From NCBI RefSeq assembly GCF_025165815.1, contig NZ_JAFFZE010000032.1:1-64000 (forward strand): a stretch of DNA of 64,000 nucleotides. The letters are read 5' to 3'. A program made the translations under genes and the position numbers. The notes under the pieces are model-generated. The model ran no database searches, was not told the DNA's origin, and was given only the letters and a program-made list of their open reading frames with translations. This document shows positions 1-13,613 of the stretch, in pieces; the stretch's first letter is position 1, and every line of letters starts with the position of its first letter. This DNA comes from Actinophytocola gossypii (GTDB lineage: Bacteria > Actinomycetota > Actinomycetes > Mycobacteriales > Pseudonocardiaceae).

Positions 1-410
1 AACGCCTCCGGGCGCTCCACCGCGAGCTGCTCGATCTCCACACCACCCTCGGCGGAAGCCATCGCCAGGAACGTCCGATTGGTGCGATCCAACAGAAACG
101 AGAAGTAGTACTCCTCGGCGATGTCCGAGGCCGGAGTCACCAGGACCCGACGCACGGTGTGACCCTTGATGTCCAGGCCCAGGATGTCCTCCGCGCGGGC
201 CTGCGCCTCGGCCGGGTCGGCGGCCAGCTTCACACCGCCCGCCTTGCCCCGGCCGCCGGTCTTGACCTGCGCCTTGATCACCACCGGGACACCGAACTCG
301 GCCGCGGCGTCGCCCGCGGCGGACGCGTCCTCGACGACTCGCTGACCCGGGCCGACGGGCACGCCGTGCCGGGCGAACAGGTCTTTTGCTTGGTACTCGT
401 ACAGGTCCAC
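1..410 (-). CDS. sucC: Succinyl-CoA synthetase (ADP-forming) beta subunit, N-terminal part
   Basis: Only the first ~136 codons are in the window; the gene runs off the left edge. The product begins [12 protein letters not shown] and continues with [19 protein letters not shown] and [14 protein letters not shown], which are the N-terminal ATP-grasp hallmarks of SucC. The enzyme interconverts succinyl-CoA and succinate with nucleotide phosphorylation in the citric acid cycle. The GTG start at 410 is chosen because GGAGG lies 9 nt upstream. It is divergent from the oxalate/formate-type carrier, and a GntR-type palindrome (462-477) sits between them, so this copy may belong to the oxalate regulon. 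Whether it is the only sucC of the genome cannot be seen. A malate-CoA ligase beta subunit is a less likely alternative. Confidence 0.92.
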
Positions 411-461
411 GCGCCGGAGCCTCCAATTCAGGGCTGTGACCGGAACCACTCGGTGTTGTAG

Positions 462-477
462 ACTGTATGCAGTATGG
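462..477. promoter_or_regulatory. GntR operator candidate 1 (sucC/MFS intergenic)
   Basis: Reads ACTGTATGCAGTATGG. The GTATGC core and flanking bases recur at 2586-2601, 12413-12430 and 12595-12612, all in promoters of the same locus. The centre is 36 bp upstream of the MFS ATG and 60 bp from the sucC GTG. Assignment to the GntR protein at 2652 is inferred from position and from the usual FadR-family preference for short AT-containing palindromes. Confidence 0.6.
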
Positions 478-505
478 AACGCTCTTGTCCAGCCGGAGGC
501 CAGTG

Positions 506-1840
506 ATGAGGACCTCAACCAGCCCCGAAACGTTCGACTTCCTCGGCCGCACCTACTCCGTCGGCCCGGACGCCGAGACGATCCTCGGCCGCCGCAGGGA
601 GTGGATGCTGTGGTTGCCGTGGGCCGCGATGGCCGCGATCGGCATCCTGCAGTACGGATTCGGCTCCCTGGTGCCCGCGCTCACCCAACGCGGCTGGGCG
701 CCGGGCGACGTGTTCTGGCTGCTGGCGCTGTGGACCGTGTTCCAGGCCGGCGCCGGCTTTCCGGTCGCGTTCCTGCGCGAACGCGGCCGGATCGGGCCGC
801 GCAGCGCCATGATCGCCGGCGCGGTACTGCTGGCGTTCGGTCCGCTCGCCCTGGCGCACGGCTCGGCGCTCGTGGCCGTCGTCGGCTACTCGGTGCTCAG
901 CGGCACCGGCGCGGGCCTGGTCTACGCGACCTGCTCGTCGACGGTCGCCAAGTGGTACCCGGAGCGCACGGCCGCCAAGGTCTCCCTGGCGACCGGCGCG
1001 TTCGCCTACGGCTCGGTGCCGTTCGCGATCGCGTTCCTGTTCACCGCCGACGGCGGACCGCTGACCGGGATGCTCGTCGTGACGTCGGTGGTGATCTTCC
1101 TGGTGGTGCTCGGCGCCGGCGTGGTGCTGCGCGACCCGCCCGCGCACTGGTGGCCGCCGCAGGTCGACCCGCGCGAGTGGGCGCTGGACCGCACCCAGAG
1201 CCCGGTGAGTGCCGTGCGCCAGTACTCCCCCCGCGAGGCGATGCGCACCGGCGTGGCGCCGCTGATGTACCTGATCCTGTTCTGCGCCAGCGCGGTGTCG
1301 CTGTTCGACATCACGTTCCTTGCGACGCTCGGCACCCGGATGGACGTGGCGCTGTTCGTGGTCGCGATCGGGACCGGCGTGCTGCTCGGCACCAACGGCG
1401 CCGGCCGCGCGCTGGCGATCCGGGTGTCGGACCGGGTCGGCCGTACCCGCACCCTCGGCTGGGTCCTGGCGGTGCTCGGTGTCGGCCAACTGTGCCTGGC
1501 GAGCGCCGCCAGCACCGGCTCGGTCGCGATGCTGCTCCTGGCGACCCTGCTCGCCGGCACCGGCGGCGGCGCGTTCTACCCGCTGTTCGCGAGCCTGGCC
1601 AGGGAGTTCTTCGGCGACCAGAGCGCGGGCGCCCGCCAGACCCATGCCGCGGTGTACAGCGCGAAGGCGTTCGGCGGCGTGCTCGGCGTCGGCGTCGCCG
1701 CGGCCGTGGTGCCCGAGTGGGGCTTCACCACGGTGCTGCTGCTGGCGACGCTGCTCGCCGTCGGATCGGGCGCGCTGTGCCTGAAACTGCGCCAGCCCGG
1801 CCGCTTCCTGCCCGGCCTCCCGCCGCAGCGAACCGCTTGA
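506..1840 (+). CDS. MFS transporter, oxalate/formate antiporter (OFA) type
   Basis: A 444-residue, 12-helix major facilitator protein. The stretch [20 protein letters not shown] after the fourth helix resembles the signature region of the OFA family (OxlT-like), which exchanges oxalate for formate or imports organic acids. ATG 506 is chosen over ATG 467 because GGAGG (495-499) is correctly spaced and because 467 lies inside the predicted operator. The context (formyl-CoA:oxalate CoA-transferase and a ThDP lyase under the same operator motif) supports oxalate or a related small carboxylate as substrate. The family is broad, so the substrate is an inference. The 109 bp downstream of its stop hold no complete gene. 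Confidence 0.82.
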
Positions 1841-1949
1841 CCTCGGCCGTGGCCACGAGTCCGTCAAGCCGCGCGAGATCCTGCTGACCGGGCGATCGCC
1901 CGGTACGAGGAGGAACTGCTGGAACACGGGTACCGGGGGTGACGCCCGG

Positions 1950-2447
1950 TCAGGAAACCCTGGTCGTCGCGACGACCGGCACCGTTTCCGGATAGCGCGG
2001 GATGCACCCGAGCATGCTGTACCCGAACCTGTCCGGGCGATAGCTGACGGTGCCGGTGTTCGGGAACGTGAGCTGCGCGCTTCCGCTGAAGCGCAGCAAC
2101 TCGCCGGCCGGGATCGCCGGATTGGTCAGGTCCATCCGCACCTTCTCCACGCCGGCGCCCTCCAGCGCGACGTGGAACACGGCTTCGTACTCGCCGGCCG
2201 GAACCGGTCGGGTCGCCGGGTAGACGGTCTGCACGACGGTCGCCGAGATCGTCGCGGTCTGCCCCTGGTGTGCGGTGGCCGGCGGCGTGATCGTGACGTC
2301 GAACATCCTCGGGGAGATGACCGGACCGACCGAGCCGCACATGTACTCGACACGCGCGGTGCCCGCCGTCGCGGGAACGGTGCCGAGCGTCATGACACCG
2401 ATGACGACGGCAGCACAGATCGCGATCCTTCGAAGAAGCGATGACAA
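1950..2447 (-). CDS. Secreted hypothetical protein
   Basis: 165 residues from a TTG start at 2447 that has GGAGG five nucleotides upstream; no ATG or GTG gives a comparable N-terminus. The product begins MSSLLRRIAICAAVVIG and has a typical Sec signal with a likely cleavage after PATAGTA. The mature part is rich in beta-strand-forming residues and has two cysteines (YMCGSV and MLGCIP) that could form one disulfide. I do not recognise a named domain; similar small secreted beta-sandwich-like proteins are common in actinomycetes. It is divergent from gntR, sharing a 204-bp intergenic region with operator 2, so co-regulation is possible but unproven. Confidence 0.65.
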   Translation of the reverse strand: MSSLLRRIAICAAVVIGVMTLGTVPATAGTARVEYMCGSVGPVISPRMFDVTITPPATAHQGQTATISATVVQTVYPATRPVPAGEYEAVFHVALEGAGVEKVRMDLTNPAIPAGELLRFSGSAQLTFPNTGTVSYRPDRFGYSMLGCIPRYPETVPVVATTRVS

Positions 2448-2585
2448 GGCGTCCTCCAACCCACTCGGTTCGACACCAGAGAGCTTGGAAGCCGGTCGCG
2501 ACGGCACGCATCTCCGGCCGTGCCGCGGTGGTTTCGGTCACGCGCTGTGAACGTCCTCACGGCTGCCGGAAACGGACATCATGCC

Positions 2586-2601
2586 GCTGTATGCTGTAGA
2601 C
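2586..2601. promoter_or_regulatory. GntR operator candidate 2 (gntR promoter)
   Basis: Reads GCTGTATGCTGTAGAC, sharing CTGTATGC with candidate 1 and GTATGCTG with candidate 3. Its centre is about 58 bp upstream of the gntR start, which suggests autoregulation. It is the most degenerate of the four copies on its right half. Confidence 0.55.
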
Positions 2602-2651
2602 AACGGGCAAGAACCGTCCAGCCGCCCGCAGTCGACCTGATGGAGTCCAGC

Positions 2652-3395
2652 ATGCAGTCGAACGAGTTGCCGAAGGAACTGGCGGCTCGCCGGATCGACC
2701 GGCCGGTTCCCCTGCGTGAGCACGTCTACCAGGCGATGCAGGAGCTGATCATCTCGCGGCGGCTCGCGCCGGGTCAACACCTGGTCGAGAGCGAGCTGGC
2801 GCAGATGCTGGGCGTGTCCCGCCAGCCCGTGCGCGAGGCGCTGCAGTGGCTGAACAACGAGGGCTGGGTCGACCTGCGCCCCGGTTACGGCGCGTTCGTG
2901 CACGCCCCGACGCAGGAGGAGGCCGACCAGCTGCTGGCCGTGCGCCGCCTGCTGGAGAGCGAGTCCGCCCGGCTGGCCGCGCTGCACGCGGACGCCGAGG
3001 GCGTCGCGAAGCTGCGGGACCTGAACCGCCAGGGCGTCGAGGCCCTGGAGAACGACGACGTGGACACCGCCGTCGCGCTGAACGCCGCGGTACACCGCTG
3101 CGTCACCGAGCTGTCCGGCAACAAGGTGCTGCTGGACTTCGCCACCCAGGTGGACCGCAGGGTCCGCTGGTACTACACCCCGATCGCGCGGCAGCGCGGC
3201 GAGCAGTCCTGGCAGGAGCACGCCGCGCTGATCGACGCGATCGAGAACCGCGATGCGGACACCGCCGCCCGCATCATGGCCGAGCACACCGAGCGGACGC
3301 GCAAGTCCTACCTCGAACAGCAGGTGGAGGACGACGCCGACCAGCAGCTGATCGCGCTGCCGGCCCGCCGCCGCCGCAAGGCCTCCAAAGCCTGA
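2652..3395 (+). CDS. GntR-family transcriptional regulator, FadR/FCD subfamily
   Basis: 248 residues. Residues ~15-85 form a winged helix-turn-helix (LREHVYQAMQELIISRRLAPGQ, then LGVSRQPVREALQWL), and residues ~95-215 form the all-helical FCD ligand-binding domain with the expected Asp/His pattern (LNAAVHRCV, QEHAALIDAI, AEHTER). FCD regulators bind small carboxylates and normally repress a neighbouring catabolic operon. Start ATG 2652 has GGAG seven bases upstream; ATG 2640 is an in-frame alternative. A palindrome like those in front of the lyase operon lies in its own promoter, so I predict an autoregulated repressor of the oxalate locus. The C-terminus is strongly basic (ARRRRKASKA), an unusual tail. 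Confidence 0.88.
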   Translation: MQSNELPKELAARRIDRPVPLREHVYQAMQELIISRRLAPGQHLVESELAQMLGVSRQPVREALQWLNNEGWVDLRPGYGAFVHAPTQEEADQLLAVRRLLESESARLAALHADAEGVAKLRDLNRQGVEALENDDVDTAVALNAAVHRCVTELSGNKVLLDFATQVDRRVRWYYTPIARQRGEQSWQEHAALIDAIENRDADTAARIMAEHTERTRKSYLEQQVEDDADQQLIALPARRRRKASKA

Positions 3396-3411
3396 CAAGG
3401 CTCTTCCCGAA

Positions 3412-3430
3412 GGCGGCCACGACGGCCGCC
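3412..3430. terminator. Hairpin after gntR
   Basis: Arms GGCGGCC and GGCCGCC around a 5-nt loop, 17 bp after the gntR stop. There is no T tract, as is usual in high-GC actinomycetes, so termination strength is uncertain. Confidence 0.45.
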
Positions 3431-3503
3431 GGCCCCAGCACGCCCTGGTCCGCACCGACGCGACCACGGCGTCCCCGCGATGCCCGAAGGAGGTGACACC
3501 ACC

Positions 3504-3674
3504 ATGCGTAACTGGCTGACCAGGCGCCACGGCTTCAACGCCGACGGCCGCACCCTCGGCCTCGGCCTCGCCGCCGCGATGGAGAAGCAGCGCGAGCAGG
3601 CGACCCGCGAGGTCGAGGACTACCTGCGCGACAACACGTCCGAGGACCGTCGTGTGACGCCCACCTCGGCTTGA
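3504..3674 (+). CDS. Small protein, first of a tandem paralogous pair
   Basis: 56 residues starting MRNWLTRRHG, preceded by a strong AAGGAGGTG ribosome-binding site. The core ADGRTLGLGLAAAMEKQREQ, then TREVEDYLR, is repeated almost exactly by the next gene (3752-3937), which proves that both are real coding sequences. The protein is hydrophilic and probably two helices, with no signal or membrane segment. I do not recognise a named family. The function is unknown; its position between gntR and terC in the oxalate locus may be incidental. Confidence 0.7.
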   Translation: MRNWLTRRHGFNADGRTLGLGLAAAMEKQREQATREVEDYLRDNTSEDRRVTPTSA

Positions 3675-3707
3675 GCCGGTCCCGACCGGGTACCCAGAAG
3701 ATGGAAC

Positions 3708-3730
3708 CGAGCCGTGGTCCGTACGGCTCG
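3708..3730. terminator. Hairpin between the two small paralogous genes
   Basis: Perfect 8-bp arms CGAGCCGT and ACGGCTCG around the loop GGTCCGT. The same 7-nt loop sequence caps the larger hairpin at 3952-3988 after the second paralogue, so the gene and its hairpin were probably duplicated as a unit. It could be an attenuator, a processing site or a weak terminator. Confidence 0.5.
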
Positions 3731-3751
3731 TCTCCACAGGAGGTGAACACG

Positions 3752-3937
3752 ATGCGCAACTGGCGAGAGACCCTCAAGGCCCTCACCAGCTCTCCCCGCG
3801 GGCATCTGCCCGCCGACGGCCGCACCCTCGGCCTCGGCCTGGCCACCGCGATGGAGGCACAGCGCCGGAACTCCACCCGCGAGGTGGAGGACTACCTGCG
3901 CACGACCCCGCCGGAGCGGGTGAAGACCACCACCTGA
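3752..3937 (+). CDS. Small protein, second of a tandem paralogous pair
   Basis: 61 residues starting MRNWRETLKAL, with a strong AGGAGGTG ribosome-binding site. It shares ADGRTLGLGLATAMEAQR and TREVEDYLR with the upstream paralogue; the N-terminal linker and C-terminal tail differ. The duplication, the strong translation signals and the conserved core argue for a functional small protein, perhaps a structural or protein-protein interaction partner, but no function can be assigned. Confidence 0.7.
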   Translation: MRNWRETLKALTSSPRGHLPADGRTLGLGLATAMEAQRRNSTREVEDYLRTTPPERVKTTT

Positions 3938-3951
3938 CCGCGGAGGAGACC

Positions 3952-3988
3952 GGTGGGCCGGGCCATGGTCCGTATGGCCCGGCCCACC
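3952..3988. terminator. Bidirectional terminator between small gene 2 and terC
   Basis: Perfect 15-bp arms (GGTGGGCCGGGCCAT and its complement) around the loop GGTCCGT. It lies between convergent genes (stops at 3937 and 4006), the expected place for a shared terminator. Confidence 0.75.
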
Positions 3989-4005
3989 GTGCTTCGGCGA
4001 GTCGG

Positions 4006-4995
4006 TCAGTCGACCTCGGCGGGGTGTTCCTCCGGGGTCGGGGCGACCTCGCGGGTGCGGTCGTGGCGGACCTTGAGGAGGCTGGCGATCGTCGTGATGG
4101 CGAGGGTGCCGACGATGACGCCTAGGGACACCATGATGGGGATCTCCGGCGCCCAGGACACGCCGTCGTGGTGCAGGGCCTCCATCACCAGTTTGACGCC
4201 GATGAAGCCGAGCACCACCGACAGGCCGTAGCTCAGGTACACCAGCTTGTCCAGCAGCCCGCCGATCAGGAAGAACAGCTGCCGCAACCCCATCAGCGCG
4301 AACGCGTTCGCGGTGAAGACCAGGTACGGCTCCTTCGTCAGCCCGAAGATCGCGGGGATCGAGTCCAGGGCGAACAGCAGATCCGTCGTCCCGATCGCGA
4401 CCATCACGATCAGCATCGGGGTGACCATGCGGCGACCGTCCACCTTGGTCGTGACCCTGGCGCCGTCGTAGGAGTCCGTGGCCGGCAGGAAGCGCTTGGC
4501 CACCCGCAGCATCGCGTTCTCCTTGAACTCCTCCTCGTCGTCGGAGTGGGTCATCAGCTTCCACGCGGTGTACACCAGGAACGCGCCGAAGACGTAGAAC
4601 AGCCAGTCGAACCTGGTGATCGCCTCGTAGCCCACCATGATGAACAGGCCACGCATCAGCAACGCCAGCACGATCCCGATCGACAGCACCTTCTGCCGGT
4701 ACTGTCTCGGCACCGCGAACGACGACATGATGATCACGAACACGAACAGGTTGTCCACCGACAGTGAGTACTCGGTGATCCACCCGGCGAAGAACTCACC
4801 GCCGAACTGAGCACCCTCGAACACCAGGATCCCGAGTCCGAACAGGATGGCCAGTCCGACATAACACCCGATCCAGACCGTGCACTCCTTGAGCGACGGG
4901 TCCCGCGGGTTGCGCGAGATGAGATAGAAGTCGAAGCAGATCACCGCTGTCAGACCGATGATCGTGACCAGCCACAGCCACAGGGGGACGTTCAT
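4006..4995 (-). CDS. TerC/Alx-family integral membrane protein
   Basis: 329 residues with about nine hydrophobic helices. The TerC signatures are clear: EYSLSVDNLFVFVIIM with the acidic pair in a membrane helix, and TTDLLFALDSIPAIFGLT with a second buried Asp. TerC/Alx proteins export Mn2+ or support metal loading of exported proteins, and many are controlled by Mn-sensing leader RNAs. The 5' leader here carries a perfect 9-bp hairpin (5033-5061). Start ATG 4995 has AAGG upstream. It lies downstream of the Nramp-like gene and a small membrane protein, on the same strand, so metal homeostasis linked to this locus is plausible. Confidence 0.88.
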   Translation of the reverse strand: MNVPLWLWLVTIIGLTAVICFDFYLISRNPRDPSLKECTVWIGCYVGLAILFGLGILVFEGAQFGGEFFAGWITEYSLSVDNLFVFVIIMSSFAVPRQYRQKVLSIGIVLALLMRGLFIMVGYEAITRFDWLFYVFGAFLVYTAWKLMTHSDDEEEFKENAMLRVAKRFLPATDSYDGARVTTKVDGRRMVTPMLIVMVAIGTTDLLFALDSIPAIFGLTKEPYLVFTANAFALMGLRQLFFLIGGLLDKLVYLSYGLSVVLGFIGVKLVMEALHHDGVSWAPEIPIMVSLGVIVGTLAITTIASLLKVRHDRTREVAPTPEEHPAEVD

Positions 4996-5007
4996 CGCCT
5001 ACCTTTC

Positions 5008-5061
5008 GCCCGCGTGCGGGCACGACTCGCCAATGCGCCGCCGGTCACGATAGCGGCGCAT
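5008..5061 (-). promoter_or_regulatory. Structured leader of terC (two hairpins)
   Basis: In the 104 bp before terC there is a perfect 9-bp hairpin with arms ATGCGCCGC (5033-5041) and GCGGCGCAT (5053-5061), and, nearer the start codon, GCCCG/CGGGC (5008-5021). A Mn-type leader RNA would fit a TerC gene, but I do not see the conserved loop sequences of the yybP-ykoY class, so this is only a structured-leader call. Confidence 0.35.
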
Positions 5062-5099
5062 CGACGAGCTTCCCTCGGGGACTTGTCCAGACGTGCAGG

Positions 5100-5657
5100 T
5101 CAGCGGGCCGAGGTGGCTTTCCTCACACCACCACCGCGCGCAGCCTTCCTGCGCTCCTTGGCTTCGTACAGGATCCGCGCGTGCTCGGCGTACCGCAGGT
5201 ACACCTCGCGCGCCCTCGGGTTGTGCTCGGACACCCTGCGCCACCACCTCGGCGCCAGGCGCTCGTGCAGCCACAGGAAGCCGATCGCGAAGCCCGCGCT
5301 CACGATCCCCTGGTACGCCAGGAAACCCAGCGGATCCGGCGGCAGCCCCGCCTCACCGGTGAGCACCAGCCTGGTCAGGACCTCGTGCAGCAGCCGGGCG
5401 ACCGGGAACGCCACCAGCCAGTACAGCGCGGCCGGCGCGAAGCCGCCGAGCCGCACCCGCTCGTTGATCAGCAGCATCGTGTACCCGGCGCCGGCCAGTG
5501 CCAGCGGCACGGCCAGGGTCAGCGCCGACACCAGCGCCCAGCCGGCGGGCTGGCCGACGAACCCGGCCAACCCGCCGGCGGCGACACCGGCGACGAACCC
5601 GACAGCGAGACCGGGCAGGGTGAGCTCGGCCAGACGGTAGAGGCGCATCGCACTCAT
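5100..5657 (-). CDS. Hypothetical multi-pass membrane protein
   Basis: 185 residues with about four hydrophobic segments (residues ~12-35, 40-65, 75-95, 115-130) and a basic C-terminal tail (YEAKERRKAARGG). It starts 3 bp after the stop of the Nramp-like gene, so it is translationally coupled to it; an internal ATG at 5648 is an alternative start. No family recognised. The pairing suggests an accessory subunit of the transporter, which is an inference from adjacency only. Confidence 0.65.
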   Translation of the reverse strand: MSAMRLYRLAELTLPGLAVGFVAGVAAGGLAGFVGQPAGWALVSALTLAVPLALAGAGYTMLLINERVRLGGFAPAALYWLVAFPVARLLHEVLTRLVLTGEAGLPPDPLGFLAYQGIVSAGFAIGFLWLHERLAPRWWRRVSEHNPRAREVYLRYAEHARILYEAKERRKAARGGGVRKATSAR

Positions 5658-5660
5658 TCC

Positions 5661-7160
5661 CTAGTTCACCACTACGCCGAAGCGGAACAGGCTGTAGAAC
5701 AGCATGCCGAGGTAGAACACCGCACCGAACCCGATGATCGCGTTGGACCACCACCGGGGACGGATCGGTTTCGGCAGCATTCTGTTGTTCACCAACAACA
5801 ACACCACGCAGTAGGCACCCATGGCGAACGTGGACAGGAACGCCAGGATGTCCAGCACGCCGCTCGGCCCGTCCGCCGGTCCGAACAGCAGGATCAGGAT
5901 GCCGAACGTGATGACGCCCCACAGGAAGCCCGCGTACAGGTGGGACAGCCGGAACCGCCGCGCGCCCGGCACGTGGAAGTACGTCATGTCCGCCTGACCA
6001 CGCGAGAACGAGTCGAACAGGCCGAGGGTGGCGTTCAGCCCGATCAGCGCGATGAACCCGAAGAACAGCCCGCCGAGGACCGGCCCGCCGGCACTGGCGA
6101 ACGCGTCCGACATGGCCTGCAACGCCGCGTCCCGGTCACCGCCCTCGATCAGCCCCTTGACGTTCGGGTTCTCCCGCGCGGCCGCCTGGGCCAGCACGGT
6201 GAACGAGATCGTCACCAGCATCGTGATGCCCCAGAACAACAGCAGCGCGTCGAAGGTGACCCACTTGCGCCACCCGCGCCACTTCTGCATCTCCTGCGGG
6301 TTGTCGGTGTCGAACATGAACCCGCGGGCCGGCATCTCCTCCTCGTCCTTCGCCGACCGCAGGCCGCGGATCTTCGGCACGTGCGCGCCCATGCCGGCGC
6401 CGGAGTCCCGCAGGTGCAGCGTGTACCACATCTGCTGCATGCCGGACGGGCCGGCGAACGCGATCGAGCCGACCACGATCGGGAACCACGCCTCGGACAG
6501 CGCCTCGGACGGGAAGTACCCGAACGCGAACATGCCGCCCAGCGTGCTGGTCAGGTCGCCCCAGCTGCCGACGATCGACGCGATCACCGCGGTGCCGACC
6601 ACGAGCGTGCCGATCAGGATCGCCAGCACGTTCTCCAGCAGGTTGTAGATGACGCTCGCCAGGCTGAACAGGATCCCGACGAAGATCAGGGCGACGCAGG
6701 CGGTCACGACCCACGGTATGCCGGTGAGCTGCTCGAAGGCTGCCGCACCGGCGGATAGATGGCCCGGCCAGATGTAGACCAGGATCGCGGTGACGAAGAA
6801 GAACCACATCAACGGTTTGAACACGCGTGCCGCGCCGGAGAAGATGCTCTCCCCGGTCGCCATCGCGTAACGCGCCATCTCGAGCATCACCACTGCCTGC
6901 AGGGTGACACCGATCAGGAACAGCCATCGGATCTCCGGTCCGAAGACCAGCACCAGCCGCGGCCACATGTACGACTCGCCCATGCCGACCCCGAGCGCGA
7001 CCAGGAACACGGTCGGGCCCAGCAGGTGGATGGACGGCGGCGCATCCGGCAGCGGGCGAATGGGCATGGGTTCGAGCCCCCCGGCTCGCCATACCCGTTC
7101 CTCGCCCTCGACAGTGGCCTCACCACTGCCGACGGCGGGAGGGTTGTGAGAATCCACCAT
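5661..7160 (-). CDS. Nramp-like divalent cation transporter, non-canonical metal-site motif
   Basis: 499 residues and about 11 membrane helices with the Nramp fold pattern. In helix 1 the usual metal-binding DPGN is replaced by a GVGMGESYMWPR stretch, and the helix-6 segment reads SIAFAGPSGMQQMW rather than the usual A/MPH motif. Nramp homologues without DPGN include the Nramp-related Mg2+ transporters, so Mg2+ is a candidate substrate; that would suit the Mg2+/ThDP-dependent lyase encoded next to it. ATG 7160 follows GGAGG by four bases; GTG 7157 is close. The long insertion between helices (DEEEMPARGFMFDTDN) is also unusual. It is separated by 110 bp, including a hairpin, from the upstream acyl-CoA synthetase gene. 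Confidence 0.78.
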   Translation of the reverse strand: MVDSHNPPAVGSGEATVEGEERVWRAGGLEPMPIRPLPDAPPSIHLLGPTVFLVALGVGMGESYMWPRLVLVFGPEIRWLFLIGVTLQAVVMLEMARYAMATGESIFSGAARVFKPLMWFFFVTAILVYIWPGHLSAGAAAFEQLTGIPWVVTACVALIFVGILFSLASVIYNLLENVLAILIGTLVVGTAVIASIVGSWGDLTSTLGGMFAFGYFPSEALSEAWFPIVVGSIAFAGPSGMQQMWYTLHLRDSGAGMGAHVPKIRGLRSAKDEEEMPARGFMFDTDNPQEMQKWRGWRKWVTFDALLLFWGITMLVTISFTVLAQAAARENPNVKGLIEGGDRDAALQAMSDAFASAGGPVLGGLFFGFIALIGLNATLGLFDSFSRGQADMTYFHVPGARRFRLSHLYAGFLWGVITFGILILLFGPADGPSGVLDILAFLSTFAMGAYCVVLLLVNNRMLPKPIRPRWWSNAIIGFGAVFYLGMLFYSLFRFGVVVN

Positions 7161-7215
7161 TGGACCTCCAGTGTTCGGTGTAACTACCGCCTGCCTGCCT
7201 GTCGACCCCTGCCCG

Positions 7216-7244
7216 GGTGACCGCCGTCCGTCTCGGCGGCCACC
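7216..7244. terminator. Hairpin between acyl-CoA synthetase gene and Nramp-like gene
   Basis: Arms GGTGACCGCC and GGCGGCCACC pair with one mismatch around a 9-nt loop. It may partly terminate the lyase-frc-synthetase operon before the transporter gene, or stabilise the 3' end of its mRNA. Confidence 0.35.
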
Positions 7245-7270
7245 CCGTCGTGAAACGAATCCGTCCGTTG

Positions 7271-9406
7271 CTAGCCGATGAGGCCGGCGGCCCTCGCCCA
7301 CCGGTACTTGGCACCGAGGACCGCGACCGGCCGCTCGGTGGTGTACGGGTACGCGACCACCCGGTGTTCGAAGAGGTAGTCGCAGGCCTGCTCGACCTCG
7401 GTGTCGCCGGCCAGCGACGCCACCACCGGCTTGTCGATCCCCTTGGCCCGCGCCTCGGCGAGGACCTTGGCGGTCAACTCGGCGAACACCATCGGCGGCG
7501 TGACGATCGTATGCCAGTAGCCCAGGATCAGCGCGTGGATGCGCGGGTCCTCCAGGCCAAGGCGGATGGTCGCCTCATACGTCGACGGCGGCTCGCCACC
7601 GGTGATGTCGATCGGGTTGCCCGCCGCCCCGAACGGCGGGATGAACGCGCGGAACGACTCGTCCAGGTCCGGCGGGATGTCCATCAGGGACAGTCCCTCC
7701 GCGACACACGCGTCGGACAGCAGCACCCCGGAGCCGCCCGCACCCGTGATGATGACGACGTTCTCGCCCTGCGGGGTCGGCAGCAGCGGCAGACCCCGAG
7801 CGTACTCCAGCATCTCGTTCAGCCCGGGCGCCCGAACCACGCCGGCCTGGCGGAGGATGTCGTCGTACACCTTGTCGTCGCCGGCGAGCGCACCGGTGTG
7901 CGAGCTGGCCGCCCGCGCACCCATGTCCGTGCGGCCCGCCTTGAGCACGACGACCGGCTTCTTCTTGGTCATGCGTTGCGCGGTCTCCACGAACGCACGC
8001 CCGTCCTTGAGGTCCTCGAGGTGCATGGCGACACACTGGGTGTTGTCGTCGTTCTCGAAGAACGTCAGCAGGTCGTCCTCGTCCACGTCGGACTTGTTGC
8101 CGAGCCCCACGATCGCCGAGACGCCCATCTTGGTGGTCCTGGCGAAGCCGAGGATCGCCATGCCGATGCCGCCGGACTGGGAGGTGAGCGCCACCCCGCC
8201 CTTGACGTCGTACGGCGTGCAGAACGTCGCGCACAGGTTCTGCGGGGTGTAGTAGTAGCCGTAGATGTTCGGGCCGAGCATCCGGACGCCGTACTCGTTC
8301 GCGATGCCGACGATCTCGTCCTGCAGCTCCTGGTTGCCGGTCTCGGCGAACCCGGACGGGATCATCACCGCCGCGGTGACACCCTTCTTGCCGCACTCGG
8401 TCAGCGCCGCCGGCACGAACTTCGCCGGCACGGCGAACACCGCGACGTCGACGTCGCCCGGGACGTCGCCGACCGACTTGTACGCCTTGCGGCCCATGAT
8501 CTCGTCGGCCTTCGGGTTGATCGGGTGGATCTCGCCCTGGTAGCCGCCGTTGATCAGGTTCTTCATCACCGAGTTGCCGATCTTGCCGGCCTGGTCGGAC
8601 GCGCCGACGACCGCGACCGAGCGCGGGTTCATCAGCCGGTTCATCGCGGCCAGGATGTCCTCCTGGCTGTGCTGCACCGGCTGGGCGCGCTCCTCGGTCT
8701 CCAGCAGGATCCGCACGTCGGCCGCGACCGCGCCGCTGGCCGAGGCGAACACCGGGTTGAGGTCGAACTCGCTGATCTCCGGGAAGTCGGTGACCAGCTG
8801 GGAGACCTTCCGGATCACGTCCGCGATCGCGTCCAGGTCGGCCGGCTCGGCGCCGCGGGCGCCCTGGAGCACCTCCGCGGCCTGGATGCCGGTGACCATC
8901 GAGCGGGCCTCGGCGGTGTCCAGCGGCGCCAGCCGGAACGTCACGTCCTTGAGCACCTCGACCAGCACGCCGCCGAGCCCGAACGCGACGACCTTGCCGA
9001 ACGTGCCGTCGGTGGTGGCGCCGACGATCACCTCCTGACCGCCGCCGACCATCTCCTGGATCTGCACCCCGGTGATCGACGCGTCGGCCTTGTACGCCTT
9101 GGCATTGGCGAGGATCTCGTCGTACGCGGCGCGGGCCGCGTCGGCGCCGTCGACGCCGATGACCACGCCGCCTGCCTCGGTCTTGTGCAGGATGTCCGGA
9201 GAGACGATCTTGGCCGCCACCGGTTTGCCGATCTCCTCGGCGAGCTTCGCCGCCTCGTCCGCCGTCGTGGCGAGACCCTCTCGCGGGGTCGGGATACCGT
9301 ACGCGTCGCAGACCCGCTTGCCCTCGGGGGCGGTGAGCGAGTCGCGACCCTCGGCCCGGACCTCGTCCAGGACCTTGCGAACGGCCGCCGTGTCTACTTC
9401 GGACAT
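7271..9406 (-). CDS. Acyl-CoA synthetase, NDP-forming (fused beta-alpha)
   Basis: 711 residues. Residues ~25-235 are an ATP-grasp domain (AAKIVSPDILHKTEAGGV, EFDLNPVF), ~255-380 a CoA-binding Rossmann domain (PRSVAVVGAS) and the rest a succinyl-CoA-ligase-like region with the phosphohistidine loop SSHTGALAG (His503). The enzyme makes an acyl-CoA from acid, CoA and ATP, or runs in reverse to conserve energy. It starts 4 bp after the frc stop. In this operon it could form the initial oxalyl-CoA or succinyl-type donor, or convert formyl-CoA to formate with ATP gain; these are inferences. The usual GPNC motif reads GPNIYG here. Confidence 0.86.
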   Translation of the reverse strand: MSEVDTAAVRKVLDEVRAEGRDSLTAPEGKRVCDAYGIPTPREGLATTADEAAKLAEEIGKPVAAKIVSPDILHKTEAGGVVIGVDGADAARAAYDEILANAKAYKADASITGVQIQEMVGGGQEVIVGATTDGTFGKVVAFGLGGVLVEVLKDVTFRLAPLDTAEARSMVTGIQAAEVLQGARGAEPADLDAIADVIRKVSQLVTDFPEISEFDLNPVFASASGAVAADVRILLETEERAQPVQHSQEDILAAMNRLMNPRSVAVVGASDQAGKIGNSVMKNLINGGYQGEIHPINPKADEIMGRKAYKSVGDVPGDVDVAVFAVPAKFVPAALTECGKKGVTAAVMIPSGFAETGNQELQDEIVGIANEYGVRMLGPNIYGYYYTPQNLCATFCTPYDVKGGVALTSQSGGIGMAILGFARTTKMGVSAIVGLGNKSDVDEDDLLTFFENDDNTQCVAMHLEDLKDGRAFVETAQRMTKKKPVVVLKAGRTDMGARAASSHTGALAGDDKVYDDILRQAGVVRAPGLNEMLEYARGLPLLPTPQGENVVIITGAGGSGVLLSDACVAEGLSLMDIPPDLDESFRAFIPPFGAAGNPIDITGGEPPSTYEATIRLGLEDPRIHALILGYWHTIVTPPMVFAELTAKVLAEARAKGIDKPVVASLAGDTEVEQACDYLFEHRVVAYPYTTERPVAVLGAKYRWARAAGLIG

Positions 9407-9410
9407 GTGC

Positions 9411-10640
9411 TCAGATCACTCCGCTCGTCTTCAGCTCGGCCAGTGCCTCTTCGTCCAGGCCGAGCTCGTTGCCGTAGATCTCCTGGTTGTGCTCGCCGAG
9501 CAGCGGGGAACGCCGGACCTCCGCCGGGGAGTCGGAGAGCTTGATCGGCATGCCGACCGTGGTGAACTCGCCGCGCTCCGGGTGGTCGACCTTCACGACG
9601 ATCTCGTTGTCCGCCAACGACTCGTCCTCGATGATCTCCTTGGTCGACAGGATCGGCCCGCACGGGATGTTGTGCTCGTTGAGCTTGGCGAGCACCTCCC
9701 ACTTGCCGTGGCCGGCCGACCAGTCCTCGATGAGCTGGAACATCTTGTCCAGCTTGTTCAGCCGTGCCTCGGGCGTCGCCCACTCGGGGTCGTTCGCCAG
9801 CTCCGGCCGGCCGATCAGCTGCGTGATCGGCGCCCAGCCGACCGGCTGGACGATCACGTAGATGTAGTCGTTCGGGCCGCCAGGCGCGCACTTGATCGCC
9901 CAGCCCGGCTGTCCGCCGCCGGAGGCGTTGGCCGACCGGGGCACGGTGTCGCCGAACTCCTTGTTCGGGTACTCGGCGAGCGGGCCGTGGGTGAGCCGCT
10001 GCTGGTCGCGCAGCTTGACCCGGCACAGGTTGAGCACCGCGTGCTGCATCGCGACGGTGACCCGCTGCCCGCGGCCGGTGTGCTCGCGCTGGTAGAGCGC
10101 GGCCAGGATGCCGGCTACCACGTGCATGCCGGTACCGGAGTCGCCGATCTGCGCACCGGTGGCCAGCGGCGGGCCGTCCTCGAACCCGGTGGTGGACATC
10201 GAGCCGCCCATGGCCTGGGCGACGACCTCGTAGGCCTTGAAGAACTTGTACGGGCCGTCACCGAACCCCTTGACCGACGCGTAGATCAGCTTCGGGTTGA
10301 TCTCCCGCAGCTTCTCCCATGGGAAGCCCATCCGGTCGATCGCGCCGGGGCCGAAGTTCTCCGCCAGGATGTCGAACTTCTTGACCAGCTCGACGAACAG
10401 CTCCTTGCCCTTGTCCGACTTCATGTTCAGCGTGATGCTGCGCTTGTTGGAGTTCAGCATCGTGAAGTAGAGACTGTCCGCGTCGGGGATGTCGCGGAGC
10501 TGCTTGCGGGTGATGTCGCCGGAGGTGGCCTCGAGCTTGACCACGTCGGCGCCGAACCAGGCCAGGATCTGCGTGGCCGACGGTCCACTTTGGACGTGGG
10601 TCATGTCGAGGACGCGGACGCCTTCGAGTGCCTTGCGCAT
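9411..10640 (-). CDS. frc: Formyl-CoA:oxalate CoA-transferase
   Basis: 409 residues, class III (CaiB/BaiF) CoA-transferase. It closely tracks Oxalobacter formigenes FRC by eye: [37 protein letters not shown] with the catalytic Asp (Asp167), [10 protein letters not shown], and the glycine loop GGGQPGW that shields the active-site anhydride. FRC transfers CoA from formyl-CoA (or succinyl-CoA in related enzymes) to oxalate. It is the middle gene of a tight operon: 12 bp after the lyase stop and 4 bp before the synthetase. This is the strongest single indication that the locus handles oxalate. Confidence 0.88.
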
Positions 10641-10652
10641 GTGCTGGCCCCC

Positions 10653-12380
10653 TTACTTGTACATGGTCTGGTTCATCGTTCCCGGCGCGTAGACCTCCGG
10701 GTCGACCCAGACGTTGATCAGGGACGGCAGGCCGCTCTCCCGCGCCCGCTCCAGCGCCGGCCGGATGTCCTTCGGGTCGCGGACCTCCTCGCCGTAGCCG
10801 CCGAGCATCTTGGCGAACTCGCTGTACCGGATGTCGCCCAGCGTGTTGCCGACGCGCCCTCGGTCGGCGCCGTACTTCTGGATCTGGCCGTAACGGATCT
10901 GGTTCATCGACGAGTTGTTGCCGACGATGCCGACGAACGGCAGGTTGAACCGCACCAGCGTCTCGAAGTCGAAGCCGGTCAACGAGAACGCGCCGTCGCC
11001 GAACAGCGCGACGACCTCCTTGTCCGGCCGCGCGTACTTGGCCGCCATCACGAACGGCACGCCCACGCCGAGCGTCCCGAGCGGACCGGGGTCCATCCAG
11101 TGCCCGGGCGACTTGGGCTGCACGACCTGGCCGGAGAAGGTGACGATGTCGCCGCCGTCACCGATGTAGATGGAGTCCTCGGTGAGGAACTCGTTGATCT
11201 CGTGCACCAGCCGGTACGGGTCGATCGGCGAGGCGTCGGAGTGCTGGCGCGGCAGCCGCTTCTCGTACGCGGCGGTCTCCACCGCACGCAGCTCCTCCAG
11301 CCACGCCTTCCGGCCGACCGCGCCGTTGTCCGTTCGGCCGGACGCCGCCTGGGTGACCGCGGCGAGCACCGCGCCCGCGTCGCCGACGATGCCGAGGTCG
11401 ACGTCGCGGTTCTTGCCGACCGTGCGGTAGTCCAGGTCGATCTGCACGACCGTGGCGTCGGTGGAGAGCCGCTTGCCGTAGCCCATCCGGAAGTCGAACG
11501 GGGTGCCGACGATGATGATCAGGTCGGCGTTCTGGAACGCGTACCGGCGGGCGAGCTGGAGGTGGTGCGGGTCGCCCGGGGCCAGCGTGCCGCGGCCGGA
11601 GCCGTTCATGAACGCCGGCACGTTGAGCGTGCGGACGAACTCGGTGGCCGCGTCGGTGCCCCGGGTGGTCCACACCTGGCTGCCGAGCAGGACGCACGGC
11701 TTCTCCGCGTTGACGACCAGGTCGGCCAGGCGCTCGACCGCGGCCGGGTCGCCCGCGCTGCGGGTGGAGGCCCGGTAGGCGCCCGCCTTGGGGATGCGGG
11801 CCTTCTCCAGCGGCACCTTGGCGTCCAGCACGTCACGCGGGATCTCCAGGAAGGAGGGGCCGGGCGCGCCGAGGTAGCACTCGCGGAAGGCCATCGACAC
11901 CAGGTCCGCGGCGCGTTCGGTGTGCGGCACCGTGGCGGCGAACTTGGTGATCGGATTCATCATGTCGACGTGCGGGAGGTCCTGCAGGGAGCCCATCTTG
12001 TGCTGGGACAGGGCGCCCTGGCCGCCGATCAGCAGCATCGGGCTCTCCGCGCGCAGGGCGTTGGCCACGCCGGTGACGGCGTCGGTCGTGCCGGGGCCAG
12101 CGGTGACGACCGCACAACCGGGTTTGCCGGTGATGCGGGCGTACCCGTCGGCTGCGTGCGCGGCGACCTGCTCGTGGCGTACGTCGATGACGTCGATTCC
12201 CTCGTCGACACATCCGTCGTAGATGTCGATGATGTGCCCGCCGCAGAGCGTGAAGATCACGTCCACGCCCTCGGCCTTGAGCGCCTTGGCCACCAGATGA
12301 CCCCCGGAGATCATCTCCGGGTTCTCCTGACCGTCGCTGCCCGGCGTCTCCCGGACCGTTGAAGCCATGTGACTCGTCAT
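10653..12380 (-). CDS. ThDP-dependent lyase, oxalyl-CoA decarboxylase / 2-hydroxyacyl-CoA lyase type
   Basis: 575 residues with the three ThDP-enzyme domains: PYR ~25-190 with catalytic Glu70 (VRHEQ), central ~205-345, and PP ~395-560 with the cofactor motif GDGAF (461-465) ending in NN (488-489). The context with frc suggests oxalyl-CoA decarboxylation to formyl-CoA and CO2. However, the Tyr-Glu pair expected in classical oxalyl-CoA decarboxylase is absent: residues 129-138 read MGSLQDLPHV, which resembles 2-hydroxyacyl-CoA lyase (MGAFQEFPQV in the human enzyme). So it may cleave another 2-hydroxyacyl-CoA to formyl-CoA and a carbonyl. GGAG directly abuts ATG 12380, so ATG 12368 may be the true start. 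First gene of the operon, with an operator about 40 bp upstream. Confidence 0.8.
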   Translation of the reverse strand: MTSHMASTVRETPGSDGQENPEMISGGHLVAKALKAEGVDVIFTLCGGHIIDIYDGCVDEGIDVIDVRHEQVAAHAADGYARITGKPGCAVVTAGPGTTDAVTGVANALRAESPMLLIGGQGALSQHKMGSLQDLPHVDMMNPITKFAATVPHTERAADLVSMAFRECYLGAPGPSFLEIPRDVLDAKVPLEKARIPKAGAYRASTRSAGDPAAVERLADLVVNAEKPCVLLGSQVWTTRGTDAATEFVRTLNVPAFMNGSGRGTLAPGDPHHLQLARRYAFQNADLIIIVGTPFDFRMGYGKRLSTDATVVQIDLDYRTVGKNRDVDLGIVGDAGAVLAAVTQAASGRTDNGAVGRKAWLEELRAVETAAYEKRLPRQHSDASPIDPYRLVHEINEFLTEDSIYIGDGGDIVTFSGQVVQPKSPGHWMDPGPLGTLGVGVPFVMAAKYARPDKEVVALFGDGAFSLTGFDFETLVRFNLPFVGIVGNNSSMNQIRYGQIQKYGADRGRVGNTLGDIRYSEFAKMLGGYGEEVRDPKDIRPALERARESGLPSLINVWVDPEVYAPGTMNQTMYK

Positions 12381-12412
12381 CTCCTCATGTCATCCGTGGG
12401 TCGGAGGTGGCG

Positions 12413-12430
12413 CATACTGCATACCGTATG
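12413..12430. promoter_or_regulatory. GntR operator candidate 4 (lyase-frc operon promoter)
   Basis: Reads CATACTGCATACCGTATG; on the other strand it matches candidates 1 and 3 (GGTATGCAGTATG). The centre is about 41 bp from the lyase start, a position typical for a repressor overlapping the promoter. Confidence 0.65.
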
Positions 12431-12594
12431 ACTCTAATGACGGCCAGCGTCCCGGTCTACGTTTTGTCGCTCGCGCCTGTCGAACCTGTTGTCTGATCCC
12501 GCTCCGGATGGCTCGCAGTGGCCTGCCGTGCGCACCCCGCAAGCCTCTGACCAGCCGATCCTCGGTCTTCTCTTCTCGTTTCGGCCAACTTCCC

Positions 12595-12612
12595 ATACTG
12601 TATGCTGCATAC
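12595..12612. promoter_or_regulatory. GntR operator candidate 3 (reductase promoter)
   Basis: Reads ATACTGTATGCTGCATAC and contains a perfect 6-1-6 palindrome, GTATGC-T-GCATAC (12600-12612), the best copy of the four. Its centre is 36 bp upstream of the GTG start at 12642, the same spacing as candidate 1 to the MFS start. Confidence 0.7.
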
Positions 12613-12641: not shown

Positions 12642-13613
12642 GTGAAAGTTGCTGTTCTTGGGGCCGGAGCCATCGGCGCGTACGTCGGTGCGGCGCTGCA
12701 CCGAGCCGGAGCCGAGGTGCATCTCATCGCCAGAGGTCCCCATCTGGAGAAGATCCGCGAGTCGGGAGTGCAGGTGCTGAGCCCGCGCGGAGACTTCGCG
12801 GCCCGTCCACACGCGACAGACGACCCGACCGAGGTGGGCCCGGTCGACCACGTGTTCCTCGGCCTGAAGGCGAACCGGTACGCCGAGGCGGGCCCGATGG
12901 TCAAGCCGTTGCTGCACGACGACACCACGATCATCGCGGCGCAGAACGGGATTCCGTGGTGGTACTTCCACGGGGTGGCCGGCAAGTACGCCGGCTACCG
13001 CATCGACAGCGTCGACCCGGACGGTGCCGTCTCCGCGGCGCTGCCGGTGGAGCGCGCGATCGGGTGCGTGGTCTACGCGGCCACCGAGATCGAGTCCCCC
13101 GGCGTGATCCGGCACCTGGAGGGCACGAGGTTCTCCATCGGCGAGCCGACCGGCGAGATCAGCCCGCGGTGCACGGAGTTCGCCGAGGCGATGGTGGCGG
13201 GCGGGCTCAAGTGCCCGGTGGAGCCGGACCTGCGCAAGGACATCTGGCTCAAGCTGATGGGCAACATCGCGTTCAACCCGATCAGCGCCCTGACCAGAGC
13301 GACGATCGCCGGGATCTGCCGGCACCTGAGCACCCGCGAGCTGGTCGTCCAGATGATGCGCGAGACCCTGGACGTCGCCGCCAGACTGGACGCCCACCCG
13401 GAGATCTCGATCGAACGACGGCTGGCCGGCGCGGAACGCACCGGCGAGCACAAGACGTCCACCCTGCAGGACCTGGAGAAGGGCAAACCCCTCGAACTGG
13501 ACGTGATCCTCAAGGCGGTCGTCGAACTGGCCGACCTCACCGGCGCCGAAGCCCCGACGGTACGGGTCGTCAGCGCCCTGGCCGACCTACTGAACGAACA
13601 GGTCACCGGCTGA
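12642..13613 (+). CDS. Ketopantoate reductase (ApbA/PanE) family oxidoreductase
   Basis: 323 residues from GTG 12642, with GGAG eight bases upstream. The N-terminal Rossmann motif GAGAIGAYVGAAL (residues ~6-18) binds NADPH, and the C-terminal helical domain has the family pattern KDIWLKLMGNIAFNPISAL, which carries the catalytic Lys and two Asn. PanE proper makes pantoate for CoA. Here, with its own copy of the regulon palindrome and divergent from the oxalate operon, it more likely reduces a 2-oxo acid of the pathway such as glyoxylate or a related compound, or boosts CoA supply. The substrate is not readable from sequence. Confidence 0.82.
   Translation: MKVAVLGAGAIGAYVGAALHRAGAEVHLIARGPHLEKIRESGVQVLSPRGDFAARPHATDDPTEVGPVDHVFLGLKANRYAEAGPMVKPLLHDDTTIIAAQNGIPWWYFHGVAGKYAGYRIDSVDPDGAVSAALPVERAIGCVVYAATEIESPGVIRHLEGTRFSIGEPTGEISPRCTEFAEAMVAGGLKCPVEPDLRKDIWLKLMGNIAFNPISALTRATIAGICRHLSTRELVVQMMRETLDVAARLDAHPEISIERRLAGAERTGEHKTSTLQDLEKGKPLELDVILKAVVELADLTGAEAPTVRVVSALADLLNEQVTG

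Follow-up and report, generated by a model that had tools for sequence, protein, structure and literature searches.

A predicted operator of an FCD-type GntR regulator most likely marks the genes for oxalate use in Actinophytocola gossypii and related actinobacteria

A shared site upstream of the transcription units of an oxalate locus

The window analyzed here comprises the first 64 kb of the 66-kb contig C18 of Actinophytocola gossypii, whose genome (G000) measures 7.38 Mb. It contains a locus with genes apparently for oxalate use, and four variants of a 20-bp near-palindrome are located upstream of the transcription units of this locus; this placement of the site is conserved across several genera and orders of actinobacteria. 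Most likely, it is the predicted docking site of a single regulator that marks the oxalate genes, the candidate being the GntR-type protein with an FCD domain that is encoded within the locus (positions 2652 to 3395, plus strand). Since the signal is shared and one regulator is predicted for it, oxalate use is probably controlled as a unit. We favor, as the likely explanation of the whole, an autoregulated FCD-GntR repressor of oxalotrophy acting at four operators. Oxalate is a common product of plants and fungi in soil, and among the titles and abstracts of open-licence papers, none was found that deals with how actinobacteria regulate the transcription of genes for using oxalate. Regulator, operator, and targets are predicted with strong cross-genome support; while the kind of system, an FCD-GntR regulon, is already known, its occurrence as an oxalate regulon is a well-supported new instance.

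Predicted operator 1 (GTAGACTGTATGCAGTATGG, positions 458 to 477, plus strand) is positioned between a sucC gene on the minus strand and the gene of an MFS transporter on the plus strand, operator 2 (TGCCGCTGTATGCTGTAGAC, 2582 to 2601, plus strand) upstream of gntR, operator 3 (TCATACGGTATGCAGTATGC, 12412 to 12431, minus strand) upstream of the oxc-frc-acs operon, and operator 4 (CCATACTGTATGCTGCATAC, 12593 to 12612, plus strand), which is retained in relatives, upstream of a PanE-like gene. A preliminary description of this DNA had quoted four strings as the sites; all of them were found in their places on direct inspection of the window, and their assignment to the upstream regions of sucC/MFS, gntR, the oxc-like-frc-synthetase operon, and panE agrees with the positions. 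Their designation as one palindrome holds to the extent that they are four variants of one 20-bp near-palindrome, whereas each single site is imperfect, with 6, 4, 6, and 5 of the 8 arm pairs of the inner 16 bp matching (sites in window order); near-symmetry is a property of the consensus only. The claim that two sites lie exactly 36 bp from a start codon had to be abandoned, as the centers used there give distances of 36.5 bp for the MFS gene, 38.5 bp for panE, 41.5 bp for oxc, 58.5 bp for gntR, and 59.5 bp for sucC. Measured from the center of the 20-mer, the corresponding values are 38.5 bp (MFS), 39.5 bp (panE), 41.5 bp (oxc), 57.5 bp (sucC), and 60.5 bp (gntR).

A total of 47 sites from 15 loci define an 18- to 20-bp block with sharp edges and the consensus ATAC-K-GTATGC-A-RTATNC, the near-palindromic form of which is ATACTG-TATG-CAGTAT. 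Kept out of matrix building were L079 to L083, which are the same loci as those carried under genome handles, as well as G039, G015, L087, L089, and L090. The consensus features a GT-N2-(A/G)C core. According to passages of PMC4494728, operators of the FadR subfamily follow a palindromic pattern with a GT-Nx-AC core, and the CTGTATGCAG core of the consensus corresponds to this pattern, albeit imperfectly, with GC in place of AC in most sites. Alternatively, the sites can be read as GYATRC hexamers in a row with 7-bp steps. A purely tandem operator like that of NanR was favored at first; given the near-palindromic logo, it is now regarded as no more than one of the possible readings. The identical 20-mer of operator 1 is present in all six Actinophytocola genomes, and the TGTATGCTGTAG core is found upstream of gntR in these six genomes and in G019 and G021.

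Frequency of the site and its conservation in other genomes

The hexamer GTATGC alone is not enriched in the window (9 occurrences versus 9.4 expected) and was dropped as the signal, its frequency being that of chance. As a key to the whole genome, the three-hexamer pattern GYATRC-N-GYATRC-N-GYATRC was too loose at ≤3 mismatches, with 19 occurrences versus 20 for the reversed control in the A. gossypii genome, and a matrix and a profile were used instead; at ≤2 mismatches, the pattern occurs at five places in the 7.38 Mb, three of which are sites described here, and the gntR site has four mismatches to it. The profile, trained on 32 sites, lists only the four window sites in the A. gossypii genome at E ≤ 5, with E values of 0.038, 0.41, 0.008, and 0.037 for operators 1 to 4, respectively. 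The whole-genome search proposed in the preliminary description thus did not turn up numerous strong copies at unrelated genes, the presence of which had been named there as evidence against a regulon. As the training sites include the four window sites, the test that counts is the one in genomes outside the training set.

A matrix derived from ten unique Actinophytocola sites, and from no other genus, was used to score nine loci from outside this genus (G019, G021, G012, G028, G036, two Crossiella loci, one Saccharopolyspora locus, and one Streptomyces locus). The 30 operon-leading windows scored 12.5 to 29.9 and the 63 operon-internal windows at most 11.3; two hyi windows were excluded by hand, i.e., that of G036 (16.3, operon-head status unclear) and that of G021 (1.5, overlapping the MFS gene). 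Among 2,700 random windows, the 99% point was 12.3 and the maximum 19.9. With 12.3 as the threshold, an automatically drawn sample of genomes of the class was scored. Sites at or above it were located upstream of oxc in 28 of 28 scored genomes and in none of the 28 controls within oxc (29 loci had been taken, one of which, L293, had no oxc match), and upstream of gntR in 17 of 29 loci, the controls again yielding none (0 of 29). In Nonomuraea, which belongs to another order, the gene order is retained and the oxc site is identical to that of the window, and in the Streptomyces loci L088, L209, and L210 the site upstream of oxc is present but weaker. In G036, frc leads its own operon and has a site (22.9), so that with the changed gene order the site has moved to the new operon head. 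Comparison of the upstream regions of orthologous loci, likewise proposed earlier, has thus revealed strong conservation across genera and orders. That the repeats arose by chance or represent a shared promoter element rather than an operator is hardly conceivable: the background frequency of GTATGC in the window, the similarity of TATGCT to a −10 element, and the selection of the four sites by eye would fit this explanation, and they are opposed by the sharply bounded block of 47 sites, the complete set of oxc upstream sites in untrained genomes, and the complete separation of operon-leading from operon-internal windows.

Association of the site with the GntR regulator

The gntR gene (ATG start at 2652) encodes a protein with a winged-helix and an FCD domain (PF00392, 69 of 27 bits; PF07729, 97 of 24 bits; here and below, such pairs give the bits obtained and the cut-off of the NCBIfam or Pfam model). 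It reaches none of the NCBIfam equivalog cut-offs, and its score for the NanR model NF003011 is 96.6 of 260 bits. Three FCD histidines are conserved in an alignment of 23 rows, while the customary Asp is an Asn; these histidines, which we take to be metal-site residues, are in line with metal-assisted carboxylate binding.

Among 41 genomes, that of A. gossypii included, GntR was found in 12 and Frc in 12; both were present in 11, each alone in one, and neither in 28. With cut-offs of E ≤ 1e-50 for GntR and E ≤ 1e-150 for Frc, 49 of 394 genomes of the class (again including A. gossypii) contain GntR and 31 contain Frc, and all 31 Frc genomes have GntR. In the relative G015, which possesses oxc and frc, a GntR match is lacking, and so is the site upstream of oxc (best score, 1.1).

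A CRP/GlxR-like element of the form TGTGA-N6-TCAC(G) is located upstream of operator 2 (2546 to 2561, plus strand). In all six Actinophytocola genomes, the distance from its start to the gntR operator is 35 to 37 bp; a variant is present in G021, and none was found upstream of gntR in G019. The element suggests an additional carbon-source control. Its presence there is also what could be cited if another regulator bound the sites and gntR were a mere neighbor, which is very unlikely in view of the co-occurrence of GntR and Frc, the joint absence of GntR and site in G015, the site upstream of gntR itself, and the GntR-type core.

The FadR/FCD regulons of organic acids (GlcC, LldR, PdhR, and DgoR, as covered in parts of PMC4494728) resemble the present system in the combination of GntR and FCD domains, in an operator that is near-palindromic and contains a GT-N2-(A/G)C core, and in a site before the regulator's own gene; they differ in the pathway controlled, and the GntR described here reaches no NCBIfam equivalog cut-off. 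The operator of E. coli NanR is given as (GGTATA)3 in a section of PMC8012715. NanR is likewise an FCD-type GntR, and the sites described here are also readable as hexamers in a row, whereas the GntR of the window falls short of the NanR model and the consensus is near-palindromic. In the alphaproteobacterial loci of Skermanella, Azospirillum, and Paracoccus plasmids, gntR likewise stands directly before oxc-frc with sucCD nearby, and GTATAC-type repeats before gntR were recognized by eye in Skermanella and Azospirillum, whereas the GntR proteins are only about 30% and the Oxc proteins 26 to 27% identical to those of the window. A relationship of the operator cores of the two phyla is possible. 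Repeats of the CTGGTATAC type before gntR of such gntR-oxc-frc loci were noted in L211 (at about position 6279) and L212.

Proposed mode of regulation

GntR would bind the 20-bp near-palindrome, whose center is 38 to 61 bp away from the start codons and thus at the promoters or close to them, and would most likely repress the target genes, the weaker site before gntR serving autoregulation. Upon entry of oxalate, a C2 ligand (oxalate, oxalyl-CoA, or glyoxylate) would bind to the FCD domain and the operators would be freed; that the effector is a C2 acid is a guess. Induction would then comprise uptake by the OFA-like MFS transporter and perhaps the Nramp-like protein, activation by Frc, SucCD, and Acs, decarboxylation by the oxc-position enzyme, reductive formation of glyoxylate from oxalyl-CoA by the PanE-like protein, and the glycerate route via Gcl, GlxR, and Hyi, in relatives also formate oxidation. 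The targets fit one pathway, because Frc and Gcl score above their equivalog cut-offs and aldehyde and formate dehydrogenases in relatives carry sites.

The same GntR could also act as an activator that needs its ligand to bind and then recruits the polymerase, for which CitO, an FCD regulator with citrate, offers a precedent (described in parts of PMC4746285). A scan for sigma-70 promoters, the evidential value of which is low for an actinobacterium rich in GC, produced no promoter-like match around oxc and panE, as would be the case at activated promoters, and one promoter-like match towards sucC. This single match overlaps operator 1, and the position of the operator centers, 38 to 61 bp from the starts and close to the genes in relatives too, suits repression better, so that we consider activation unlikely.

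Several observations weigh against a GntR repressor dedicated to oxalate genes. Besides the empty sigma-70 scan at oxc and panE, operator 2 is the weakest of the four by profile and its left part is not conserved, and the gntR upstream windows remained below 12.3 in 12 of 29 class loci. In 18 of the 49 genomes of the class that have a GntR match, Frc has none, some of the GntRs of Frc-less genomes being only 44 to 50% identical; one Streptomyces locus (L087) has GntR without oxalate genes in the 20 kb examined and without a good site before gntR. Compared with its reversed control, the loose hexamer pattern is rarer in G028 (2 versus 11) and equally frequent in G036 (4 versus 4), and several matches in relatives have no evident link to oxalate, e.g., G003 C2:931968 and G001 C8:206165. 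Binding, repression, and effector are, moreover, proposed from sequence comparison.

Probable oxalyl-CoA enzymes encoded in the locus

The frc gene (9411 to 10640, minus strand) encodes a formyl-CoA:oxalate CoA-transferase (TIGR03253, 669.7 of 504.2) with solved relatives in Frc/YfdW. It is followed by acs (7271 to 9406, minus strand), the product of which reaches no NCBIfam cut-off and is, by its domains PF13549, PF13607, PF13380, and PF19045, an acyl-CoA synthetase of the ADP-forming type. The thiamine-diphosphate enzyme in the oxc position (10653 to 12380, minus strand; ATG start at 12380) stands before frc in relatives too. Canonical Oxc was ruled out as its family by the score for the Oxc equivalog TIGR03254 (239.1 of 739.4) and by HACL-like residues: Gln133 aligns with Gln128 and Ile495 with Glu493 of AcHACL (numbering offset by hand), a residue table giving Glu121 for the Oxc of O. 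formigenes and Gln for HACLs. As the residues are HACL-like, the assignment as a decarboxylase is contextual; the enzyme, annotated as "acetolactate synthase/lyase," is a probable decarboxylase. In Cupriavidus and Phyllobacterium, the enzyme before frc is 65 to 66% identical to that of the window, while in Skermanella, Azospirillum, and Paracoccus a canonical Oxc with 26 to 27% identity to it precedes frc. The HACL-like enzyme thus occupies the place that canonical Oxc has in the alphaproteobacterial loci, an apparent replacement by a distant relative.

The PanE-like protein (12642 to 13613, plus strand; GTG start at 12642) belongs to the PanE/ApbA family (PRK06522.1-4 subfamily, 431 of 223) and its gene is linked to oxalate genes. 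A plasmid of Phyllobacterium also encodes a PanE homologue, its neighbors there being genes for transhydrogenase, gcl-hyi-reductase, sucCD, frc, and oxlT. Schneider et al. reportedly described in 2012 an oxalate assimilation of Methylobacterium extorquens with an oxalyl-CoA reductase, and such a reductive step yielding glyoxylate from oxalyl-CoA agrees with the presence of the PanE-like gene and the gcl operon; the comparison is one of role. PanE2 is presented as an oxalyl-CoA reductase producing glyoxylate in part of PMC12686821, reduction of oxalyl-CoA to glyoxylate is mentioned for methylotrophs in a passage of PMC3720670 that cites Schneider 2012, and a passage of PMC12927642 places glyoxylate carboligase after oxalyl-CoA reductase. 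By these comparisons, the protein annotated as "ketopantoate reductase" is probably an oxalyl-CoA reductase. The preliminary description had rightly included the PanE-like gene and sucC in the regulon but had regarded both as not usually listed in oxalate catabolism; as a PanE-family oxalyl-CoA reductase is already known in oxalate assimilation, the presence of the PanE-like gene is expected. The proposal of a GntR regulon for the oxalate locus accordingly stands with respect to the conserved operator and the co-occurrence of GntR and frc, but not with respect to spacing and the supposed oddity of PanE. Regulon membership suggests likely functions for the lyase, the ketopantoate reductase, the second sucCD, the aldehyde dehydrogenase, and the Nramp-like protein, all of which are annotated otherwise.

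A second sucCD and the glycerate operon

The sucC gene of the window (3 to 410, minus strand; GTG start at 410) comprises the first 136 codons, as its operon runs past the contig end; the fragment scores 167 of 370 for PRK00696, while the full-length ortholog in A. algeriensis (G003) exceeds this cut-off (493.7 of 370). The inclusion of sucC in the regulon, as proposed earlier, is retained with the specification that it is a second genomic copy, which in relatives leads a sucCD-hyi-glxR-gcl operon. Sites precede sucC-sucD-hyi-glxR-gcl, in this same order, in A. algeriensis, G028, Crossiella, and Nonomuraea; the run has a 1.5-kb gap in Crossiella locus L084, and in G019 sucCD has no adjoining hyi, glxR, and gcl. 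In the operon of the relatives, Gcl (874 of 791, PRK11269) and GlxR (362 of 341) exceed their equivalog cut-offs, and Hyi remains below its own (265 of 353).

Two sucC copies are present in 10 of 11 genomes with the cluster (one in G021), compared to a single copy in five GntR-less relatives. In A. gossypii, both end at contig edges (C18:3-410 and C19:3-407) and share 281 bp at 98.6%. Identity of the two copies is 76 to 84% in G001, G003, G005, G028, and G036; in G019, the regulon sucCD equals the tricarboxylic acid cycle copy at 99.85% over 2,061 bp (C1:5190048 and C1:736099) with unrelated flanks, for which gene conversion is the simplest reading. This identity suggests that the regulon sucCD encodes an ordinary succinyl-CoA synthetase, and it makes a SucCD altered into an oxalate ligase less likely. 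A SucC tree showed no single oxalate clade, with five label changes, at least two of them forced by well-supported branches, in a tree in which 11 of 23 inner branches are open and some branches are long.

Genes for SucCD are located near frc on all four alphaproteobacterial plasmids examined (Phyllobacterium, Skermanella, Azospirillum, and Paracoccus), flanking oxc-frc in the latter three, and were not found near the oxalate genes in the stretches of Methylobacterium nodulans and Ancylobacter examined. Why oxalate loci in two phyla have their own succinyl-CoA synthetase thereby becomes a testable question. When oxalyl-CoA is removed by the reductive branch and no formyl-CoA is returned, the second SucCD would probably provide ATP or succinyl-CoA. 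For two other CoA-transferases, YfdE and UctC, a passage of PMC3720670 reports no CoA transfer from succinyl-CoA to oxalate. A joint reading, in which a single FCD-GntR controls the entire program of oxalotrophy, the regulon sucCD (kept equal to the tricarboxylic acid cycle copy by gene conversion in some genomes) primes Frc by making succinyl-CoA for it when the PanE-like branch drains oxalyl-CoA, the HACL-like enzyme replaces Oxc, and oxalate is transported by the Nramp-like protein instead of an OFA transporter, is speculative and, taken as a whole, rather doubtful.

Transporters, further targets, and neighboring genes

The MFS protein (506 to 1840, plus strand; ATG start at 506; PF07690) is OFA-like, with scores below the OFA cut-offs (TIGR00890, 103 of 375; TIGR04259, 91 of 335) and with an L-lactate transporter and the oxalate:formate antiporter OxlT as PDB relatives. 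The Nramp-like membrane protein (5661 to 7178, minus strand) scores 466 of 50 for NF037982 and, below the cut-off, 19.6 of 29.8 for PF01566. Both DPGN and MPH, which we take to be the metal-site strings of Nramp proteins, are absent from it; a search at E ≤ 1 returned no PDB sequence relative, and its predicted model has a mean predicted local distance difference test (pLDDT) value of 42. Judged from its sequence and setting, it is a possible oxalate transporter. In 12 distinct loci of relatives, the gene after acs is that of the Nramp-like protein, a place taken by an OFA-like MFS gene in G028, G036, and Streptomyces locus L088.

The predicted regulon contains the genes named in the preliminary description and is larger than proposed there, including, by sites in relatives, an aldehyde dehydrogenase, formate dehydrogenases, and OFA-like transporters. 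Specifically, an aldehyde dehydrogenase near SSADH has a site in all seven genomes possessing it (16 searched), which was detected by matrix in G000, G001, G003, G005, and G021, by profile in G002, and by eye in G004. One type of formate dehydrogenase has a site in four of four genomes (G002 to G005), and further sites were found for formate dehydrogenase in G012, for OFA-like transporters in G001 and G012, and for TerC-like genes in G003 and, by eye, G005. The A. gossypii genome contains weaker matches at the aldehyde dehydrogenase gene (C13:11134), at the start of fdsB (C47:1894), and upstream of an OFA-like gene (C41:309416), none of which is listed by the profile. Matches without an evident link were found at a gamma-glutamyltransferase-like gene (C47:464746) and inside an acetyltransferase-like gene (C46:134093), the names having been given by eye.

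Operator-like sites also lie over the start codon and coding sequence of a carbonic-anhydrase-like gene (by eye), a possible regulon member, in G003 (C8:109062; L136, at about 2562) and G005 (C269:12005; L146). Homologues are present in G001 and G004 as well, the sites considered being those in G003 and G005, and at E ≤ 1e-30 none was found in G000, G002, and G019. Between gntR and the Nramp-like gene, the window contains genes for a TerC/Alx family protein (4006 to 4995, minus strand; TIGR03718, 380 of 246) and for a 185-residue protein of unassigned family (5100 to 5657, minus strand), which has no Pfam matches up to an E value of 10 and is retained in most related loci.

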